The notes below the pieces were generated by a model. It worked only from the letters and a program-made list of their open reading frames with translations. It made no database searches and had not been told where the DNA came from. Shown in pieces: positions 42,261-54,783 of a DNA stretch of 64,000 nt; within the stretch, counting starts at the first letter, position 1, and each line of letters opens with the position of its first letter. This stretch comes from Lysobacterales bacterium (GTDB lineage: Bacteria; Pseudomonadota; Gammaproteobacteria; Xanthomonadales; Wenzhouxiangellaceae): positions 248,001 through 312,000 of the forward strand of contig PBLG01000046.1 in the NCBI GenBank assembly GCA_002722315.1, written 5' to 3'. The position numbers were made by a program, and so were the translations under genes.

Positions 42261-45122
42261 TCAATCGGCGAGAGGCCAGGGTTCGGGCTTGTGAATCGCG
42301 AAGCCCTGGGCGAAGTCGATGCCGAGCTCGCGAAGCACTTCCAGGTCTTCGATGTGTTCGACCTGTTCGGCGACGCACGGAATGCCGGCCGTTCGAGCAA
42401 TCTGTGCAATGCCTCCGACCATCGCACGACCGAGGCGCGAGTTTCGCATGTCGCGAACCAGCTCGCCGTCGATCTTCAGGCCATCGATCGGCAGCATCTT
42501 CAGGTATCCGAACGAAGAAAAACCACTGCCGAAGTCATCCAGGCTGATCGAGCAGCCAAAGCGACGTATCCCGTTTATGAATTCCAGTGCCTCTGCGAGC
42601 CGGAAAATGGCGTTGCTCTCGGTGATTTCGAAACAGACATTGGCTGGATCGACACCGTTTCTTGCGAACTCCCGGGTGACGAACTCCAGGCTGTCGGACT
42701 GGCTGAAGCTTGCCCCCGACAGATTGATCGAGAATCTGTCCTCGGGCCTGATCTCACCGCGCGCATTGGCCTTGCCTATGGCCTGCAGCGCGTGCTCGAC
42801 CACCCATCGATCGAGCATCACGATCTTGTTGAAGCGTTCGGCGGCGGGGATGAATAGCGCCGGAGAAACAAGCGATCCTTCACGGTCGACCATTCGCAAC
42901 AAAATTTCGCATCGCTCGCCATCAAGGTCGTCCCGCAAGGCACTGATTCGCTGGACATGTAACTGGAAACGATTGTTGAGCAGCGCATCGCTGACTTCGA
43001 CGGCTGTCCGCAGCTGGATGCCGCTTTGCTGATGAGCCTCGTCGCCGGGGCGAAACGCGCTGATCTGATTGCGTCCGTTGTCCTTGGCCATGTAGCAGGC
43101 CTGGTCGGCCGCCTGCAGCGCCTCGATAAGAGTCGTGGCGCCGGCCACCTCGACCACCCCGATGCTGATGCCGACCTGGAAACGATGCTGTCGCCAGGCA
43201 AACTCGAAGTCGTTGATCGCCGCGACCAGTTTCTCGGCCACCTCGATTCCGCGCTCCAGCGTGCAGCATTGCAGGAGTAGTGCAAACTCATCTCCGCCCA
43301 GTCGAGCCAGCAGGTCGGACTTGCGCACCTGGCGCAACATCAGCGCCGCCAGTTCCCCCAGCAGCTGATCGCCAACGTGATGCCCGCAGGAATCGTTGAC
43401 AAGCTTGAACTGGTCCAGATCCATGTAAAGCAGGCAGTGGGGTTCGCGAGCCGAATCGCGAGCCAGAATCTTTTCGGCCTCGCTCTCGAACTTGCGCCGA
43501 TTGAACAGGCCGGTCAGCGAATCGTGCTGCGCCTGCCACGTGATCTGGCGTGATTTGCGCCGGCTTTCGGTCACGTCGCGGAAGACGATCACGAAACCGC
43601 CGGACGATCTGGTGTCGGCTAGTGGGGTTATCGAAAGCTCGATGTCACTGTAGCGCCCGGTCCGTCCGTCCAGACAGAAAGCCCTGGAAGCAAGCAGTTC
43701 CGGATCGTGCAGCAGATGCAGGGGATTGATCTCGACCGCGCTGTCATCGTGTTCCCAGTAAAGGATCCGCATCACGTCGGACAAGGCGGCGCCTGTGGCA
43801 TGCTCGGGCGCTCGCCCGGTCAGCCGACAAGCCACCGGGTTCAAGTACTGAACCTTTCCGTCGAGATCGGTGCGAATCACCGCATCGGAAATCGAATCGA
43901 GTGTCACGCGCGCTTCGGCGCGCGCAGAGGCAAACGCCTGCTGCTCGCGCTTGCGCTCTGTCACATCGGACATGGTGCCGATCATGCGCGCCCCAGCGCC
44001 CTGCTCTGTGGCGAGAAACGAGCCACGGTCCACGATGTCGATCCAGACACCATCGGCGCGCTCGAACCGGTATTCGGCAACGTATTCGCCGTTGCCGGCC
44101 TGCGCCCGTTCCAGCGCCTCGACTGCGCGGACCCGGTCATCCGGGTGAATGCGCCGTTCCCACTGAGCGAGGTCGATATGCACGGCTTCGTCTAAATCGC
44201 AGCCCAGAACGGTCTTGATCGCTCCAAGCCAATGGATCCGACCGGTTGCGAAATCGGCATCGTAGACGAGTTGCCCGGTGGCAAGCGCCATGGTCCGATA
44301 AGCCCGTTCGCTGTATGCGATCCGGGCTTCGGCGCGCGCCCGCCGGGTCACATCCCGCAGCGTCCCGCGAAAGCCGGAGGGTGTTCCTGCGTCGCTGCGA
44401 ATCTGCGAAACAGAACATTCCAGCGTGAGCGTCGAGCCTCGGGTATCGACAATCCTGATATTGATGCCGCGTCCACTGACGCCCCTGTGTGCCACCCGTA
44501 GAAATGCACGCATGACGCGTGCCTTGTCTTCATCGACGACGCGATCCAGAATTCGCAGGCCCACGATGTGGTCATCGTCCACCTCGAGAATCTCCCGGAG
44601 TGCGGCGTTGCAGAACAACAGGCTGCCGTCAAGGTCGAGTTCGAAATAGCCGTCGATCAACGATTCGACGATTGTCCGGTACTGTTCCTCGCGCTGGACC
44701 AGCAGCGCTTCGGCATTCTTTCGCGCGCTGATATCACGGTAGATTCCGAAAATTCCGATCTGCTCATGGGTCGAGCGGATAGGTACACCGGAGACTTCAA
44801 CGTCCAGGAGACTGCCATCGCGCGTCATGCGCGAAGATTCGACGCGCACCGGCGTGCCGTCGAGCACTTCGCTGGAAATTTCGCTGGCCTCGTCGTGAAA
44901 TCCCGGGGCGACAATCAACTCGTGGATCGATCGGCCGACGCACTCGGTCATCGAATACCCGAACAACGCTTCGAAGGCGGAGTTGGTGCGGATCACGCGA
45001 TCAGTGCCGTCAACCAGCACGATTCCATCGGGCGAGTGCTCGAACAGATGTTCAAACAGGATCGAATCGAGGCCTGAATCGCTGCCGGTCGAGTCGGGCT
45101 TGCATTTTGCAGTGGCGTCCAT
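42261..45122 (-). CDS. Multi-PAS GGDEF/EAL cyclic-di-GMP protein
   Basis: PAS/PAC repeats (LFEHSPDGIVLVDGTDRVIRTNSAFEALFGYS...), RLGGDEFALLL GGDEF, EAL-type FSINLSGASFS and ISLDDFGSGFSSFGYLKMLPIDGLKIDGELV. Start M at 45122. Confidence 0.88.
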   Translation of the reverse strand: MDATAKCKPDSTGSDSGLDSILFEHLFEHSPDGIVLVDGTDRVIRTNSAFEALFGYSMTECVGRSIHELIVAPGFHDEASEISSEVLDGTPVRVESSRMTRDGSLLDVEVSGVPIRSTHEQIGIFGIYRDISARKNAEALLVQREEQYRTIVESLIDGYFELDLDGSLLFCNAALREILEVDDDHIVGLRILDRVVDEDKARVMRAFLRVAHRGVSGRGINIRIVDTRGSTLTLECSVSQIRSDAGTPSGFRGTLRDVTRRARAEARIAYSERAYRTMALATGQLVYDADFATGRIHWLGAIKTVLGCDLDEAVHIDLAQWERRIHPDDRVRAVEALERAQAGNGEYVAEYRFERADGVWIDIVDRGSFLATEQGAGARMIGTMSDVTERKREQQAFASARAEARVTLDSISDAVIRTDLDGKVQYLNPVACRLTGRAPEHATGAALSDVMRILYWEHDDSAVEINPLHLLHDPELLASRAFCLDGRTGRYSDIELSITPLADTRSSGGFVIVFRDVTESRRKSRQITWQAQHDSLTGLFNRRKFESEAEKILARDSAREPHCLLYMDLDQFKLVNDSCGHHVGDQLLGELAALMLRQVRKSDLLARLGGDEFALLLQCCTLERGIEVAEKLVAAINDFEFAWRQHRFQVGISIGVVEVAGATTLIEALQAADQACYMAKDNGRNQISAFRPGDEAHQQSGIQLRTAVEVSDALLNNRFQLHVQRISALRDDLDGERCEILLRMVDREGSLVSPALFIPAAERFNKIVMLDRWVVEHALQAIGKANARGEIRPEDRFSINLSGASFSQSDSLEFVTREFARNGVDPANVCFEITESNAIFRLAEALEFINGIRRFGCSISLDDFGSGFSSFGYLKMLPIDGLKIDGELVRDMRNSRLGRAMVGGIAQIARTAGIPCVAEQVEHIEDLEVLRELGIDFAQGFAIHKPEPWPLAD

Positions 45123-45402
45123 CCCTAAAAATATGCAATACACGTGCCATGGGTTGCGGGCCGCTGCCCCCGCCACACGCGAGCGGGGTGGATGCGTGGC
45201 CGGTTGAAGATCCGGCGGGAATTCGGATGGCCAAGATGGCAAAACTGGTTGAAATCTTTCAGATTGCGCGGCGTCCGGGTGCGAACGGGCGCGGGCCGAT
45301 CACCTTAAGGCCTGCTGTCGGTCTTGCCTGAACGCGCGTGCCGGACGTAGACTTCTTCCGGGAGCGGCAGCGGGGGCCGGGGTTTTTCGAGGGAGTCAGA
45401 CC

Positions 45403-45966
45403 ATGCTGAGCATTATCGATCTCTGGATGCCGATACTGGTATCCGCCGTACTTGTATTCATTGCAAGTTCCGTCATCCACATGGTGCTCAAGACGCACAA
45501 CAGCGACTACCGCCGCCTGCCGAACGAAGAACGGGTCACGAGCGCCGTCCGCGAGCAGGGCGCCTCGCCGGGCGTCTACATGTTTCCCTACTGCACCGAC
45601 ATGAAGGAGATGGGTTCGGAGGAAACGAAGGCGAAGTTCCAGCGCGGCCCGGTCGGAATGCTGACCCTGATGCCCGACGGCATTCCCAACGTCGGCAAGT
45701 CGCTCGGCATGTGGGTGGTCTACCTGCTGCTGGTCGCGGTTTTCGTCGCCTACATCGCCGCCGCATCGCTCGCGCCCGCGGCCGACTACCCGACCGTCTT
45801 CCGTGTTGCCGGCGCGGCAGCCTTCCTGCCGTTCGTGCTCGGCAACATGCCGGCCGCCATCTGGCACGGACAGCCGTGGTCGACGACGATACGATTCGCG
45901 ATCGACGGCGTGGTCTACAGCCTGCTCGTTGCCGGCACCTTCGCGGGTTTCTGGCCGGGCGGTTGA
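45403..45966 (+). CDS. Hypothetical membrane protein
   Basis: Several TM segments (WMPILVSAVLVFIASSVIHMVL, MWVVYLLLVAVFVAYIAAA, AIDGVVYSLLVAGTFAGFWPGG). Confidence 0.75.
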   Translation: MLSIIDLWMPILVSAVLVFIASSVIHMVLKTHNSDYRRLPNEERVTSAVREQGASPGVYMFPYCTDMKEMGSEETKAKFQRGPVGMLTLMPDGIPNVGKSLGMWVVYLLLVAVFVAYIAAASLAPAADYPTVFRVAGAAAFLPFVLGNMPAAIWHGQPWSTTIRFAIDGVVYSLLVAGTFAGFWPGG

Positions 45967-46059
45967 GTCACAACGATGGGGAATCGAACCCGTTGTAGCC
46001 GCCCGAAATTGACAAACCTTGCCAAAATTGAGATTCTTGGGTAATTCCCGCGCACCAAG

Positions 46060-46308
46060 GTGAAATCCGTGACGACAATGAATGTGTCCCTTCCGGAAGA
46101 AATGAAGCGATGGGTTGAGGACCAGGGCAAGACCGGGCGGTTTGGAAATTCCAGTGATTACGTTCGGGAGCTCATTCGGCGCGATCAGGAGCGTCAGGCG
46201 AAGATCGCACACCTTCAGCGACTGATCGACGAAGGAATCCACAGCGGTGTCAGCGAAATGAGCATGGCCGACTTGCGGAACTCGGCTCGAAGCAAGATCA
46301 GACCCTGA
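46060..46308 (+). CDS. ParD-family type II antitoxin
   Basis: MNVSLPEEMKRWVEDQGKTGRFGNSSDYVRELIRRDQERQAKIAHLQRLIDEGIHSGVS; classic ParD RHH. Confidence 0.92.
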   Translation: MKSVTTMNVSLPEEMKRWVEDQGKTGRFGNSSDYVRELIRRDQERQAKIAHLQRLIDEGIHSGVSEMSMADLRNSARSKIRP

Positions 46309-46310
46309 AC

Positions 46311-46610
46311 GTGGCCTATCGGCTGACGCGCAGGGCCGCCGAGGACATCGAAGAGATCTATTCATTTGGCGCTGAGCAGTTTGGCGTCGACCAGGCCGAC
46401 GCCTATCACACGCTGCTGGAACGCACCTTCGAGTTCCTTGCGAATAATCCGCTCGCGGCCCGAAAGCGACTGGAACTGGCGCCGCCGATTCGAATACACG
46501 CGGTGCAGTCTCACCTGGTGATCTACCGGGTCGAAGACAATGGCGAGATCCTGATCGTTCGCGTTCGGCACGGCCACGAAGACTGGGCCGAACCGGTGGT
46601 CGACCCCTGA
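46311..46610 (+). CDS. ParE/RelE-family toxin
   Basis: YRLTRRAAEDIEEIYSFGAEQFGVDQADAYHTLLERTFEFLANNPLAARKR...HLVIYRVEDNGEILIVRVRHGHEDW. Confidence 0.92.
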   Translation: MAYRLTRRAAEDIEEIYSFGAEQFGVDQADAYHTLLERTFEFLANNPLAARKRLELAPPIRIHAVQSHLVIYRVEDNGEILIVRVRHGHEDWAEPVVDP

Positions 46611-46745
46611 TCGCGCAATCAGACATTTTGCCGATAGACGAAACCCTGGTTGGCCGAGCAGCATCGCTTGGTTTCGAGCACGATTTGACCCTTGAGATTC
46701 CCGATTTCGCAGCCCCAGAAAATTCTCTTAAATACCTGTTTTGAT

Positions 46746-46781
46746 TTGAAAATGAGTGCCTGAAACTGTATACTTGAACAG
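46746..46781 (+). promoter_or_regulatory. sigma70-like promoter overlapped by a LexA (SOS) box
   Basis: TTGAAA (46746-46751) - 17 nt - TATACT (46769-46774); CTGTATACTTGAACAG (46766-46781) fits CTGT-N8-ACAG. Confidence 0.7.
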
Positions 46782-46801
46782 TATTCAAGCGGAGTTCACT
46801 C

Positions 46802-48142
46802 ATGACCTCTCCGGCCATTGATCTGCCAACCGAATCTCCCCGCAAGCTGCACGAAATCGAGTCCGAAATCACTGAACTGGCCGCGCACATTCACGCCGCG
46901 ACTTACCGGCTGCTCGTGCTCATTCGCGAGTTCGACGAGCGCGAGGGCTGGGGCGGGCCCGGGATGAAGTCCTGCGCGCATTGGCTCAACTGGAAATGCG
47001 GCATCGGACTTGGGGCAGCGCGCGAAAAGGTGCGAGTTGCCCATGCACTGAACGATTTGCCGAAAATCAGCGACGCGTTCCGGCGCGGCACGGTCAGCTT
47101 TTCCAAGGTCCGCGCGATGACTCGCGTCGCGACCCCGGAGAACGAGGATTACCTGATGCAGATTGCGGATCGCGGTACGGCCTCGCATGTCGAACGGCTC
47201 GTCAAGAACTTTCGAAAGGTCAAACGAATCGAGGCGCTCGAGCAGGAGAATCAGCGCCATGCTTTGCGCGAGCTGAACTGGTTTGTCGATGACGACGGCA
47301 GCTACGTGATCCGCGCGCGCTTGACGCCGGAGCAGGGCGAGCGGGTAGTCAAAGCGCTCGAAGCCGCCTGCGATGAGAATGATTCTGAATTAAAAAACGT
47401 TCCCGCGGAAACGTCGACCACCCCGGCCGTCGATCCGATGAGCGATCCGGTCGCGGCGCGCCGCGCGGATGCACTGGAACGCCTGGCCGATGCATTCTTC
47501 GGCAAGCCCGGTGACGGTGAATCGTCTGCAGTCACCGGCGGCGATCGCTGCACCATCAACCTGCACACCACGCCCGACACGCTCGCGGCCGACGGCGAAA
47601 CGGCCGAAGCCGAGCTGGAATCGGGCGCACGCGTTTCCGCGGAAACGTCCAGAAGGCTGGCCTGCGACTGCGGCGTGGTGCACTGGCGCGAGGACGATGA
47701 CGGTTCGGCGCTGAACGTCGGCCGCAAGACCCGCAGCATCCCGCCGGCGATCCGGCGCGCACTGCAGCGGCGCGACCAGGGCTGCCGCTTCCCGGGCTGC
47801 ACTACCCACAAATATGTCGACGCGCACCACATCCTGCACTGGGCTGACGGCGGCGAAACGAAGCTGGACAACCTGGTTCTCCTGTGCCGACATCACCATC
47901 GCCTGGTCCACGAAGGCGGTTACGGCGTGGACATGACCGCCGGCGGCCCGAAATTTACCGATCCGACCGCACGGACCATCGCACCGGCGGCAGAAACGCG
48001 TTTCCGCGGAAACGTTTTTGCGCTGAAGCTGCAGAATCGACAAGTCGGGCTGAAAATCGACTCCGAGACCACGATTCCGATGTGGGAGGGCGAGCGAATG
48101 GACGACGGGATGGCGGTGGAGGGGTTGTTGCAGTTGGAGTAG
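46802..48142 (+). CDS. DUF222 (13E12-repeat family) HNH endonuclease
   Basis: GAREKVRVAHALNDLPKISDAFRRGTVSFSKVRAMTRVATPENEDYLM (DUF222), CRFPGCTTHKYVDAHHILHWADGGETKLDNLVLLCRHHHRLVHEGG (HNH). Confidence 0.93.
   Translation: MTSPAIDLPTESPRKLHEIESEITELAAHIHAATYRLLVLIREFDEREGWGGPGMKSCAHWLNWKCGIGLGAAREKVRVAHALNDLPKISDAFRRGTVSFSKVRAMTRVATPENEDYLMQIADRGTASHVERLVKNFRKVKRIEALEQENQRHALRELNWFVDDDGSYVIRARLTPEQGERVVKALEAACDENDSELKNVPAETSTTPAVDPMSDPVAARRADALERLADAFFGKPGDGESSAVTGGDRCTINLHTTPDTLAADGETAEAELESGARVSAETSRRLACDCGVVHWREDDDGSALNVGRKTRSIPPAIRRALQRRDQGCRFPGCTTHKYVDAHHILHWADGGETKLDNLVLLCRHHHRLVHEGGYGVDMTAGGPKFTDPTARTIAPAAETRFRGNVFALKLQNRQVGLKIDSETTIPMWEGERMDDGMAVEGLLQLE
47397..47414. repeat. Intragenic palindrome, copy 1
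   Basis: ACGTTcCCGCGGAAACGT (one deviation from ACGTTTCCGCGGAAACGT). Confidence 0.85.
47632..47647. repeat. Intragenic palindrome, copy 2
   Basis: CGTTTCCGCGGAAACG, perfect 16-bp palindrome. Confidence 0.92.
47999..48014. repeat. Intragenic palindrome, copy 3 (different reading frame)
   Basis: CGTTTCCGCGGAAACG, perfect; preceded by overlapping palindrome GAAACGCGTTTC (47993-48004). Confidence 0.92.
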
Positions 48143-48231
48143 GGCGGCTTCTTCGCTTGCCAGTCGCCGCTGCATAGGGGAAACTGCGGCGCGACGACAA
48201 TGCGTCCGATTGCGACGAGGGAGCAGAACCA

Positions 48232-48819
48232 ATGCAACGCAAGAAAAGTAGTTCCGCGTTACGGCTCCGAATCACTCTGGAGGGCATCGAGCCACCCATC
48301 TGGCGGAGTGTGATTTTTCCGCGAAACGGAACGCTCCACGAGCTGCATCGGGCAATCCAGATGATGTTTGACTGGTATGACTATCACCTGTACCAGTTCG
48401 AGATCGGTAACAGGCACTTCGAGGCGCCGGATGAGGGGTCAGAAGGCGAGGACTCGACCGAAGCCAGACTGTCGAAACTGATCACAGGGCCCGGTCAGAC
48501 CTTCATCTATCTCTACGATTTCGGAGACGGCTGGGCGCATCGGATCGAAGTCGAAGATGCCCACGTGTCAGCCGATCCGGGCTGGATTCCGTGGCTGGTC
48601 GACGGCGCCCGGCGTGGCCCGCCGGAAGATTGTGGCGGCGTCGACGGCTACCAGCGGCTGATCGAGGCAGCGAAAGCGCCGCGCGAATCCCTTGACGAAG
48701 ATGATCGGGAGTTCGTGGAATGGGCGGGCGACGATTTCGATCCGGAGAAATTCAACGTGGCTCAGGCGCGTCATGCCCTGCTGCTTGCCGCCGCGTGGGG
48801 CTGCTTGAAGCGACGATGA
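48232..48819 (+). CDS. Plasmid pRiA4b ORF-3 family protein
   Basis: LRLRITLEGIEPPIWRSVIFPRNGTLHELHRAIQMMFDWYDYHLYQFEIG...YLYDFGDGWAHRIEVED...GPPEDCGGVDGY. Confidence 0.9.
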   Translation: MQRKKSSSALRLRITLEGIEPPIWRSVIFPRNGTLHELHRAIQMMFDWYDYHLYQFEIGNRHFEAPDEGSEGEDSTEARLSKLITGPGQTFIYLYDFGDGWAHRIEVEDAHVSADPGWIPWLVDGARRGPPEDCGGVDGYQRLIEAAKAPRESLDEDDREFVEWAGDDFDPEKFNVAQARHALLLAAAWGCLKRR

Positions 48820-48831
48820 AGGTTCCTGCGG

Positions 48832-49641
48832 TCATTGCAATAACCCGATTGCTTGTGCCGTAGCCCAGGAAACGACTATGGCCCAGCCAAAGCTGGCGAG
48901 CGTGCCGATGATGACGGTTTCACTATGGCTGCGCTCCCTGGCGTACTGAAACCGGAGTATGGACTTGGCGGCGATGAGGAACCCGATAGCCTGAAATTCC
49001 TGAGCCATGATCAGCATGAAGATCAGCGCGCGTTCCAGAAGCCCGATCCATTTCCCGCCGTCGATCAAGCCTATGTCAGCCTCGAAGGCCTGCCTTTCAT
49101 CTGGCTGTGAATCCGTGCGCTTGCCGCGCTCTTGGTTAGGCTTGGCGGATTCATCCAGATTGAAGCCCTGCATGAACAGTTCGATTACGAAACCGCCGGT
49201 CCGCGTAGTGAGTGTGAAGCCGGCACTCACGCATAGCACGATCAGGAACTGCACCTGCAAGTCTGCCGAGAGTGTGGACCACCAGCCTTCGCTCCAGGCG
49301 TCGCGCAGGTACCAGGCCGTGACAACGATAACCAGAACATGCAGGATCTGGTCGGCCAGGAAAAGGATCAGTCTTCCGCGTGGGTGCTCGCGAACCCAGG
49401 GTTTTTCTGACTGCCAGAGCTTGCCCCAGTCGATTACCGCATGCGAAATGGCAATGATTGCAACGGTGATTAGTGCCCCGCTCGACCATGCCCCAAGCAG
49501 GACCGCCGCGGTCGCGGCGACAATCGCTACATGGGCGAGAAATGCCTTGACGCGACGTTTGTTGTCAATGATCCAGCGCACTTGCAGCACGAAATCGGCG
49601 AATACATGGGCGGCGAACAGTGTCAGGGCGGTTTCGATCAT
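48832..49641 (-). CDS. DUF3307-type membrane protein
   Basis: MIETALTLFAAHVFADFVLQVRWIIDNKRRVKAFLAHVAIVAATAAVLL...ISHAVIDWGKLW...LFLADQILHVLVIVV; multi-TM. Confidence 0.8.
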   Translation of the reverse strand: MIETALTLFAAHVFADFVLQVRWIIDNKRRVKAFLAHVAIVAATAAVLLGAWSSGALITVAIIAISHAVIDWGKLWQSEKPWVREHPRGRLILFLADQILHVLVIVVTAWYLRDAWSEGWWSTLSADLQVQFLIVLCVSAGFTLTTRTGGFVIELFMQGFNLDESAKPNQERGKRTDSQPDERQAFEADIGLIDGGKWIGLLERALIFMLIMAQEFQAIGFLIAAKSILRFQYARERSHSETVIIGTLASFGWAIVVSWATAQAIGLLQ

Positions 49642-49717
49642 GTCGCGGTCAATCTCATGTTGCAGCTATCCGAGGGAACAACGGACAGCCGTGTCGAAAA
49701 AACGGGCGGCTTTGGCA

Positions 49718-49772
49718 AAAACAGTCTATTCAGGCTGTTTTTCTGAAAACAGGCCGTTCAGGCTGTTTTTCT
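49718..49772 (-). terminator. Tandemly duplicated terminator-like hairpins between SatD-like and DUF3307 genes
   Basis: Two 28-bp-period units AAAACAG...TTCAGGCTGTTTTTCT; on minus each reads AAAACAGCC-tgaay-GGCCTGTTTT or a close variant. The SatD-like stop codon lies in the first hairpin. Confidence 0.7.
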
Positions 49773-50405
49773 ACCCAAAGCGCTCTCGAAACCGTGTATT
49801 GCCCGGAGAAGGGCCCGACCCCCGGCTTTCGCGAAATGGTCCTGCACAGTCTGCGGGCGAACTCCGATGGATTCCGCGACCTGTGCATATTTGGGTTCCT
49901 CGGGTGCTGCCACGAGCCCGAACACTTCCGCCTGTTTACTTGTCCATCCGCTCGAAAGCCCCTCGCAGGCCGCAAACAGGCCCTTGATCAGGGGCAAAAG
50001 CTGTCGAGGCTTGAAATCACCATCGATCGCCCAACGATCCGGGCCCTTGATTTCTTCGAGATGCATGCCCGATAGCTCAAAAGCGCTTCCCTGGGATCCG
50101 GCCAATGCGGTCCCTAGCGCGCCGAAGCCAATACCGAACGCGATTCTCGTATCCGCATCCTGGTCAAAATTCTTGACGATCGATCGGAACAGCAGTCCGG
50201 CCCGAAGCGCATGCACAGGTTCGATCAGCGCGAATTGCCACCCGTCGCCGCGGAATCGCTCCAGTCGGGGGCTGCTCGGCTCAGTCCATCTACGAATATT
50301 GTCCGCGCCCTCGGATAGCGACCGCATAAGTTCGTCAAGCCTTTCGCTCTCCATTCGAGTGGAGCGCACGATATCTCCGGTCAGCACGCAGATCTTTCCG
50401 CTCAT
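49758..50405 (-). CDS. SatD-family-like protein; N-terminal region resembles class III nucleotidyl cyclases, C-terminal HTH
   Basis: MSGKICVLTGDIVRSTRMESERLDELM...RLERFRGDGWQFALIEPVHALRAGLLFRSIVK...TRIAFGIGFGALGTALAGSQGSAFELSGMHLEEI...YAQVAESIGVRPQTVQDHFAKAG. Confidence 0.7.
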   Translation of the reverse strand: MSGKICVLTGDIVRSTRMESERLDELMRSLSEGADNIRRWTEPSSPRLERFRGDGWQFALIEPVHALRAGLLFRSIVKNFDQDADTRIAFGIGFGALGTALAGSQGSAFELSGMHLEEIKGPDRWAIDGDFKPRQLLPLIKGLFAACEGLSSGWTSKQAEVFGLVAAPEEPKYAQVAESIGVRPQTVQDHFAKAGGRALLRAIHGFESALGRKTA

Positions 50406-50457
50406 CGCTTTGCACTCGCTATCGCATGATTCGCTCGACACCCAATTAACGGCTTCT

Positions 50458-53976
<3,519 letters not shown>

Positions 53977-54026
53977 GGCCTCGATTGTTGCCGGAACGGG
54001 CGGGGTGGTCAAGTCGGGTTTGCCAA

Positions 54027-54320
54027 TTAGGACGGCGCGATGGGCGGCCACTGACGGCGGGTGTGGACCAGCGCAAGAATCCAGACCTTGCCGCGTTCGG
54101 GATCGACTTCGTAGATCAGTCGGTAGCTCTCGTGGACAATGAACTCGCGAGTGCCGGGAACCAGGCCCTCCCGGCCCAGCTCGGGATGGTCGATCAACCG
54201 CTTGACAGTCGTACCGAAAAGCGCGTCCATCCGGGCCGCTGCATACGGGTCATCGGCAGCGATTCTGGCCCAGATTTCAAATCGATCCTGGCGGGCCTCT
54301 GTCGTCCAGACGATTCTCAA
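54027..54320 (-). CDS. RelE/ParE-family toxin
   Basis: [73 protein letters not shown]. Confidence 0.92.
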
Positions 54321-54598
54321 CGCTCGGCCACTTTCATCGCCTGATGTCTGAGCTCGGCGAATTCGGCGTCGACTTCGGCGTCGTCGAGGCCCTTGCCGGC
54401 GCGCATCGAAGCGCGGGATTTCTTGACCTTGCGCTCCAGCCAGGTCCGGTAGTCCTCGTGCTGGTGCTTCTCGATGTATTCGCGCATGAGTTGGCGCACG
54501 ACCTGCGAGGCGGGACGATCGGCCGCTCGGGTTGCGGCCATGAAAGCCTCCCGGAGCTCCGGTTCCAGCTTCATCGTGAAAATCGCATCCTTGCTCAT
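54317..54598 (-). CDS. RHH/CopG-like antitoxin
   Basis: MSKDAIFTMKLEPELREAFMAATRAADRPASQVVRQLMREYIEKHQ; ATGA overlap with the toxin. Confidence 0.88.
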   Translation of the reverse strand: MSKDAIFTMKLEPELREAFMAATRAADRPASQVVRQLMREYIEKHQHEDYRTWLERKVKKSRASMRAGKGLDDAEVDAEFAELRHQAMKVAER

Positions 54599-54783
54599 GG
54601 TGTGCTCACCGGGTTTGGCGAAAGTATCCATAAAGTATATACCTGGTATGCATGACGCGCCACCTTGATCGATCCAGCCCGCGGCGCTCTTTTAGGACAG
54701 GGAAGAATTCATGCGCCAAGCCCTTCGGAACGATTTCCGCTACCATTCAAGGCTGATGGAAGTCCCCGGCGCCCGAGCCCCTG

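Follow-up and report, generated by a model that had tools for sequence, protein, structure and literature searches.

NrdR is a transcription repressor that combines a nucleotide-sensing domain (ATP-cone) with a zinc ribbon; it acts through regularly spaced operator boxes, two in number, and controls ribonucleotide reductase genes. ParR-type iteron arrays consist of direct repeats that are read by a ribbon-helix-helix protein. The SatD family appears to resemble both systems. What it would have in common with NrdR is the coupling of nucleotide sensing to repression through operator boxes at regular intervals, but the folds are unrelated, and SatD has a run of alternating half-sites and a linked membrane gene. 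With ParR-type systems it would share a small autoregulator and an array of repeated sites beside its own operon, whereas the SatD half-sites alternate every 14–15 bp and their predicted reader is a helix-turn-helix (HTH) carried on a cyclase fold. The open-access papers searched for the SatD family and for S. mutans satD describe neither a function or fold nor an operator or a rule about partners. A S. pyogenes gene annotated satD has been described, without explanation, as the one accessory gene to be essential where present (PMC11323703). The results presented below assign a fold, an obligate partner and a predicted DNA target with its recognition code to a Pfam family known only by its "secretion and acid tolerance" name.

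The locus studied here lies in the window, that is, the whole stretch of DNA analysed (64 kb). An initial annotation of this stretch had proposed that a SatD-like protein and a DUF3307 membrane protein form a Pycsar-like cyclic-nucleotide defence module. As shown below, most of its descriptive statements were confirmed, beginning with the location of the two genes (both on the minus strand), while its functional reading was not supported: instead of phage defence, the pair seems to constitute a control switch, so far undescribed, that regulates itself. The features of the locus are the following.

49758..50405, minus strand: satD-like gene, 215 aa (ORF and translation; AF2 model; Foldseek and profile matches to class III cyclases)
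50010..50405, minus strand: palm domain of SatD, cyclase/GGDEF-like, about residues 1–132 (D11, D54 and G113 invariant)
50373–50375 and 50244–50246, minus strand: codons of the SatD metal-site Asp residues D11 and D54, respectively
49779..49946, minus strand: C-terminal HTH of SatD, residues 154–209, with putative recognition residues P184-Q185-T186 (HTH profile matches, AF2 helices, half-site covariation)
49721..49766, no strand: predicted operator array; its four half-sites alternate between ACAG and CTGT in exact steps of 14 bp
48832..49641, minus strand: membrane partner of 269 aa, with a DUF3307 domain and the conserved C-terminal module
49294..49623, minus strand: DUF3307 domain of the membrane partner, residues 7–116 (Pfam)
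48853..49053, minus strand: C-terminal module of the membrane partner, residues 197–263 (HMM positions, alignment, hhalign)
50458..54051, minus strand: type IIG (MmeI-like) restriction-methylation enzyme, upstream neighbour outside the module (Pfam MmeI domains; PADLOC)
42261..54650, no strand: accessory stretch of 12.5 kb that carries the satD module between ruvA and ruvB

On the minus strand, satD precedes the membrane gene with a gap of 116 nt (start codons of the ORFs were assigned mechanically). Directly upstream of satD lie the type IIG enzyme, which matches the PADLOC model REase_MTase_IIG with 1588 bits, and a ParDE pair, in agreement with the location downstream of a toxin-antitoxin and restriction-modification (RM) cluster given in the initial annotation. 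A PRiA4_ORF3 gene, an HNH/DUF222 protein and a second ParDE pair occupy the opposite flank. The satD pair and all these neighbours are found between the end of ruvA (42260) and the start of ruvB (54784). In four genomes of the same genus the island genes are absent and the ruvA-ruvB gap is only about 0.1, 0.4, 1.3 and 1.75 kb, so that this junction looks like a variable insertion site. Moreover, the satD gene was absent from every same-genus genome searched and was detected in 5 of 300 genomes of the order, the window's own genome counted, which indicates that the window copy of the pair is a local acquisition. Its nearest kin in the tree are from Salinisphaera and Maricaulaceae. The island, the junction array of four half-sites and the second module of the membrane protein had all been missed by the initial annotation. 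A large minus-strand ORF next to ruvA (42261–45242) shows GGDEF- and EAL-like motifs in its translation.

In order to evaluate the association of the two genes, 80 genome loci were fetched by the membrane protein family alone. A SatD-like ORF was found immediately upstream on the same strand in 79/79 testable loci, the 80th being cut by a contig end. The reciprocal comparison started from 32 Pfam-SatD places in Bacteroidota. By coordinates, 18 of them adjoin the long membrane gene; one more adjoins a divergent long form and 10 adjoin a short form, so that a partner is present in 29/29 testable places (32 minus one at a contig end and two unexamined). SatD and partner distances are also correlated (r=0.75; permutation maximum 0.16). 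These data demonstrate that satD and the membrane gene form an obligate operon, and the earlier view of the two as a functional unit holds. In a taxon sample biased to relatives of the query, the pair spans more than ten phyla, in bacteria and salt-loving archaea. It is carried on plasmids of Vibrio, Sphingomonas, Segatella, Salinivibrio, Enterobacter, Pseudoalteromonas, Fusobacterium and two haloarchaea; the Enterobacter plasmid pair had no match in E. coli. The tree is largely clade-consistent, and about a quarter of Bacteroidota genomes carry the membrane protein family, usually in one copy.

The membrane partner matched Pfam DUF3307 (PF11750; E=1.8e-17, 64 bits for a cut-off of 23), as had been annotated, but over residues 7–116 only. 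This domain is matched by 71/71 relatives of the protein, whose alignment contains 23 invariant columns, among them H12, D16, Q20, H67, D71, K74, D97, Q98 and H101 in the DUF3307 domain. The AF2 model is all helical (pLDDT 92.9), and no meaningful structural relative of this fold was obtained from the PDB or a viral library. A second conserved part, the C-terminal module, is defined by the motif G.IG.LER...AAKS..RF...E..IGT..S and is common to all SatD partners. The short partners (104–113 aa, "type 2" pairs), which in Bacteroidota are always found 3' of a second SatD subtype (L142–L150, L152), align to this module (hhalign E=1.2e-5, HMM positions about 135–235) and share with it the motifs G..ER, A.K...R and G(T/N)..S. 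Neither the short partner nor the module has a Pfam family. Conversely, stand-alone proteins of 113–153 aa that consist of DUF3307 only occur in Gammaproteobacteria with no SatD nearby (L154–L157). DUF3307 was consequently rejected as the constant partner of SatD: since the type 2 partner corresponds to the C-terminal module alone and DUF3307 exists without SatD, DUF3307 is, judging from these alignments, an optional N-terminal addition, and the obligate partner is the unnamed C-terminal module. The annotation of the SatD partner is corrected in this sense. In the model, invariant polar residues of the DUF3307 domain and of the C-terminal module alike are situated close to the ends of helices, presumably on the cytoplasmic side, as deduced from helix order and positive loops. 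Short DUF3307-type matches were also seen in many Rhodobacteraceae.

The fold of SatD was then compared with known structures. The AF2 model, built from an alignment of 76 sequences, reached a pLDDT of 95.8, and the best Foldseek matches were Ma1120 and CyaB (probability 1.00, TM about 0.43–0.58), followed at lower ranks by GGDEF enzymes, GTP cyclohydrolase III and the cUMP synthase 7r65. The profile of 76 relatives, searched against the PDB, found the class III cyclase Ma1120 (E=2.5e-6) and the cyclase 3mr7 (4.6e-4); its alignment to Ma1120 pairs both metal-site Asp residues. By model and by profile, the N-terminal domain of SatD is a nucleotidyl-cyclase/GGDEF-type palm. The structural comparison supports the cyclase-like fold that had been proposed from motifs alone; all the quoted motifs are present, and the profile match to Ma1120 shows that they are more than chance resemblances. 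All relatives (76/76) have D11, D54 and G113, confirming that both metal-site Asp residues are kept, and T9, G10, S15, Q57, R87, S112 and W154 are near-invariant. Position 110, which corresponds to the transition-state Asn, is variable (V/T/E/I/Q). Position 114, the place of the class III Arg, is Arg in 38/76 relatives and Met in the window protein. At position 50, the place of the purine-specifying Lys, Arg is found in 45/76 relatives and in the window protein, and mostly I, V, F or T in the other relatives. The initial annotation was thus right in describing this Lys as replaced and the Asn/Arg catalytic pair as not evident. With a changing residue at the Asn position and the Arg retained by no more than 38/76 relatives, SatD belongs to the cyclase superfamily but does not have the canonical class III catalytic signature. 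Compared with the class III cyclases (Ma1120, CyaB, Rv1900c and the PycC cUMP synthase 7r65), with which it has the fold and both metal-site Asp residues in common, SatD adds a fused HTH and the family-specific residues S112-G113, Q57 and R87. It also shares the palm superfamily with GGDEF enzymes and GTP cyclohydrolase III according to Foldseek, but has no GG(D/E)EF motif and no clear sequence match. The window protein itself falls below the threshold of Pfam SatD (PF16264; E=0.29, 11.2 bits, cut-off 29) and has no NCBIfam match; its membership rests on its relatives, 20/76 of which match this family (best 9.6e-11) and so share, by profile, the family of the satD gene of the S. mutans sat operon. 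The C-terminal HTH, also annotated earlier, was recovered by profile matches and by the AF2 model, in which its helices span residues 156–165, 173–180, 184–193 and 196–209.

Inverted repeats were searched in the 110 bp preceding satD, and 22 of 75 regions gave z>2, which is an excess. This excess corresponds to arrays of alternating half-sites with a step of 14 or 15 nt, as in L024 (TTGC-N11-GCAA-N10-TTGC-N11-GCAA), where the spacers differ from one another. With a fixed detector (exact 4-mers, steps of 14 or 15), at least four half-sites were found in 27/75 discovery regions and in 23/61 new, non-duplicate regions (50/136 in all), about half of the loci being without an array under this detector and the position of the array varying between loci. 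The longest arrays reach nine consecutive half-sites, and the array-bearing regions include one plasmid each from a haloarchaeon, Vibrio and Segatella. Among control tiles from the same loci, 3/7237 reached four half-sites and none reached five. Step sizes other than 14/15 were near chance, apart from 13–14, which has the 14 step in common. In the window no array was detected directly upstream of satD. It was found instead at the gene junction, where it overlies the stop codon of satD and intergenic DNA between satD and the DUF3307 gene; it is the only array of at least four half-sites in the 64 kb, and 0/5000 shuffles of the region reached four. L015 and L018 carry this half-site, ACAG, in the corresponding position, and junction arrays were detected at 12 further loci where the two genes are spaced apart. 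An RNA reading of these arrays was considered unlikely, given the 4-bp stems and unconserved spacers. When whole genomes were scanned for single patterns, the GCAA array was found only at satD in 150 Rhodobacteraceae genomes (two genomes), and the ATCG array was found at satD in five of 198 Bacteroidota genomes and at two other places, one being an extra copy in a pair-bearing genome and the other a low-complexity match. In L235 (1501–1546; G716:C1:418039-418084), a copy of that genome's own SatD array lies far from satD and precedes an ORF for an ASCH-domain-like protein in a phage-like cluster; it would mark either another gene of the regulon or an operator that travels with a mobile element.

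To relate the arrays to the protein, 34 loci with arrays of the form N[CT]A[AG] were compared with SatD residues 184–186. Arg184 was observed if and only if the first base of the half-site is G (16/16 versus 0/18), and Ala186 if and only if the fourth base is A (21/21 versus 0/13); rows without Ala186 carry Thr or Ser at this position and G as fourth base. The half-site letters covary with residues 184 and 186 in 34/34 loci. Gln185 goes with C at the second base and other residues with T. The Fisher p values for the covariation (4.5e-10 and 1.1e-9) overstate its significance because the rows are related. Half-site orientation was fixed by the N[CT]A[AG] word search, and the half-site of one row (L089, TTAA) is self-complementary. 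Between the close relatives L033 (RLT, GTAG) and L042 (QQS, ACAG), protein and DNA differ at matching positions. The window protein, with P-Q-T, is paired with ACAG, as is L018, and the state combining Arg184 with G recurs outside Pseudomonadota (L021, L053). Arg to G is a textbook protein-DNA contact. Of all the evidence, this residue-base covariation points most strongly to SatD as the reader of the array, and it makes the HTH, which the initial annotation mentioned only briefly, the informative part of the protein.

Together, the arrays and the covariation of the half-sites with residues 184 and 186 suggest that SatD is most likely a nucleotide-binding autoregulator of its own operon. The mechanism that we favour, and hold to be rather probable, is that of a two-gene module in which SatD is the DNA-binding autoregulator and its cyclase-type domain a nucleotide sensor that controls a membrane output. 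The HTH would read the alternating half-sites, one every 14–14.5 bp, before satD or at the junction with the membrane gene; the subunits would probably assemble on the DNA as a row or filament and thereby set the level of the membrane partner, in our inference by repression rather than activation. With its two-metal Asp pair intact, the N-terminal domain most likely binds a metal-nucleotide, perhaps with slow turnover, and its nucleotide state would gate DNA binding, contact with the membrane protein, or both. If DNA binding is gated in this way, the amount of a membrane protein would be tied directly to a nucleotide pool or signal. The output would be the membrane partner, through the small obligate module with its conserved Glu-Arg, Lys...Arg and Glu/Asp at helix ends, which in the window copy is fused to a DUF3307 domain. 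More tentatively, and with rather less than even confidence, we propose that SatD may represent an undescribed class of regulators, found in bacteria and archaea, in which HTH domains form a row or filament on DNA (about 14.5 bp per subunit, alternating orientation) under the control of a two-metal cyclase-type domain, always with a single type of membrane effector and a three-letter recognition code (residues 184–186).

The invariant metal-site Asp residues could equally mean that SatD is an active enzyme. It would then be a cyclase or another NTP-converting enzyme whose small-molecule product targets the membrane partner, with the HTH and the array serving only to set expression, and the module would be a general stress or signalling switch, not a defence system. 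The conservation of T9, G10, Q57, R87, S112 and G113 in addition to the Asp pair suggests a kept active site, and the best fold matches are enzymes (among them adenylyl cyclases, GGDEF enzymes, GTP cyclohydrolase III, cUMP synthase). We nevertheless regard this reading as unlikely in view of the loss of the transition-state Asn, the presence of the Arg in only half of the relatives and a partner in which no recognised cyclic-nucleotide receptor domain was found. The order of the operon, regulator first and membrane protein second, and the patchy distribution of the pair would also suit a toxin-antitoxin-like arrangement, in which SatD restrains, by repression and perhaps by contact, a membrane protein whose over-production does harm; the S. 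pyogenes gene mentioned above, essential in its carrier strains (PMC11323703), points in the same direction. The link of that gene to the family is its satD annotation, however, and the largely clade-consistent tree and long residence of the pair in the suf operon (see below) are unlike typical plasmid-addiction modules, so that an antidote role seems improbable.

A Pycsar-type role, in which infection would prompt SatD to make a signal and the DUF3307 protein would kill the cell, was suggested by the cyclase fold of SatD and by the type IIG RM and toxin-antitoxin genes that adjoin the window pair; on a Sphingomonas insulae plasmid (L006 5001–9452), the pair likewise adjoins genes for a Pycsar effector family protein and for an adenylate/guanylate cyclase. 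The contexts in Rhodobacterales and Bacteroidota do not favour it. In about forty fetched Rhodobacterales loci, the pair is located between sufT and sufA, within the suf operon. Moreover, 8 genomes of a 31-genome Rhodobacterales sample have satD beside sufT, in all cases directly after it, and in genomes without satD sufT and sufA are often 3–115 bp apart. The pair of this order resembles a stable but often lost cassette in an Fe-S assembly operon. At 20 Bacteroidota loci, compared with same-contig control regions by PADLOC and Pfam, the 139 neighbours of the pair are mostly housekeeping genes and include a few RM genes at most. Near the Bacteroidota pair 93 PADLOC models match (E up to 1e-15), and among the top 25 models listed the matches appear to be mostly four DEAD-box helicases and type I RM genes; a defence island was rejected, as no broad enrichment over the control regions can be claimed at these 20 loci. 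No PADLOC model, Pycsar included, matched SatD or the membrane protein at E up to 1. The pair thus stands in a defence or mobile setting in the window and on one plasmid, and otherwise, in Rhodobacterales and most Bacteroidota, largely outside such settings. The initial annotation had named an occurrence chiefly outside defence contexts among the findings that would speak against its proposal, and this is largely what was seen. Its residence in the suf operon, its housekeeping neighbours and its clade-consistent tree argue against a defence specialisation, and the class III catalytic pair, which is not kept, and the obligate HTH with its operator array are further features that do not fit a Pycsar-type system. 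Phage defence is not supported as the role of the SatD pair, and we judge the Pycsar-type reading very improbable; control of the membrane partner by a nucleotide-sensing autoregulator remains the preferred one. The pair had no match in 50,697 phage records either, and a phage origin was also rejected; a search of 2.9 million viral contigs yielded a single match to the membrane protein family (L095). A SatD-like ORF is present upstream of this match, and the contig may be a mis-called provirus. On the Sphingomonas insulae plasmid (L006), a TIR-domain gene is also located near the pair.
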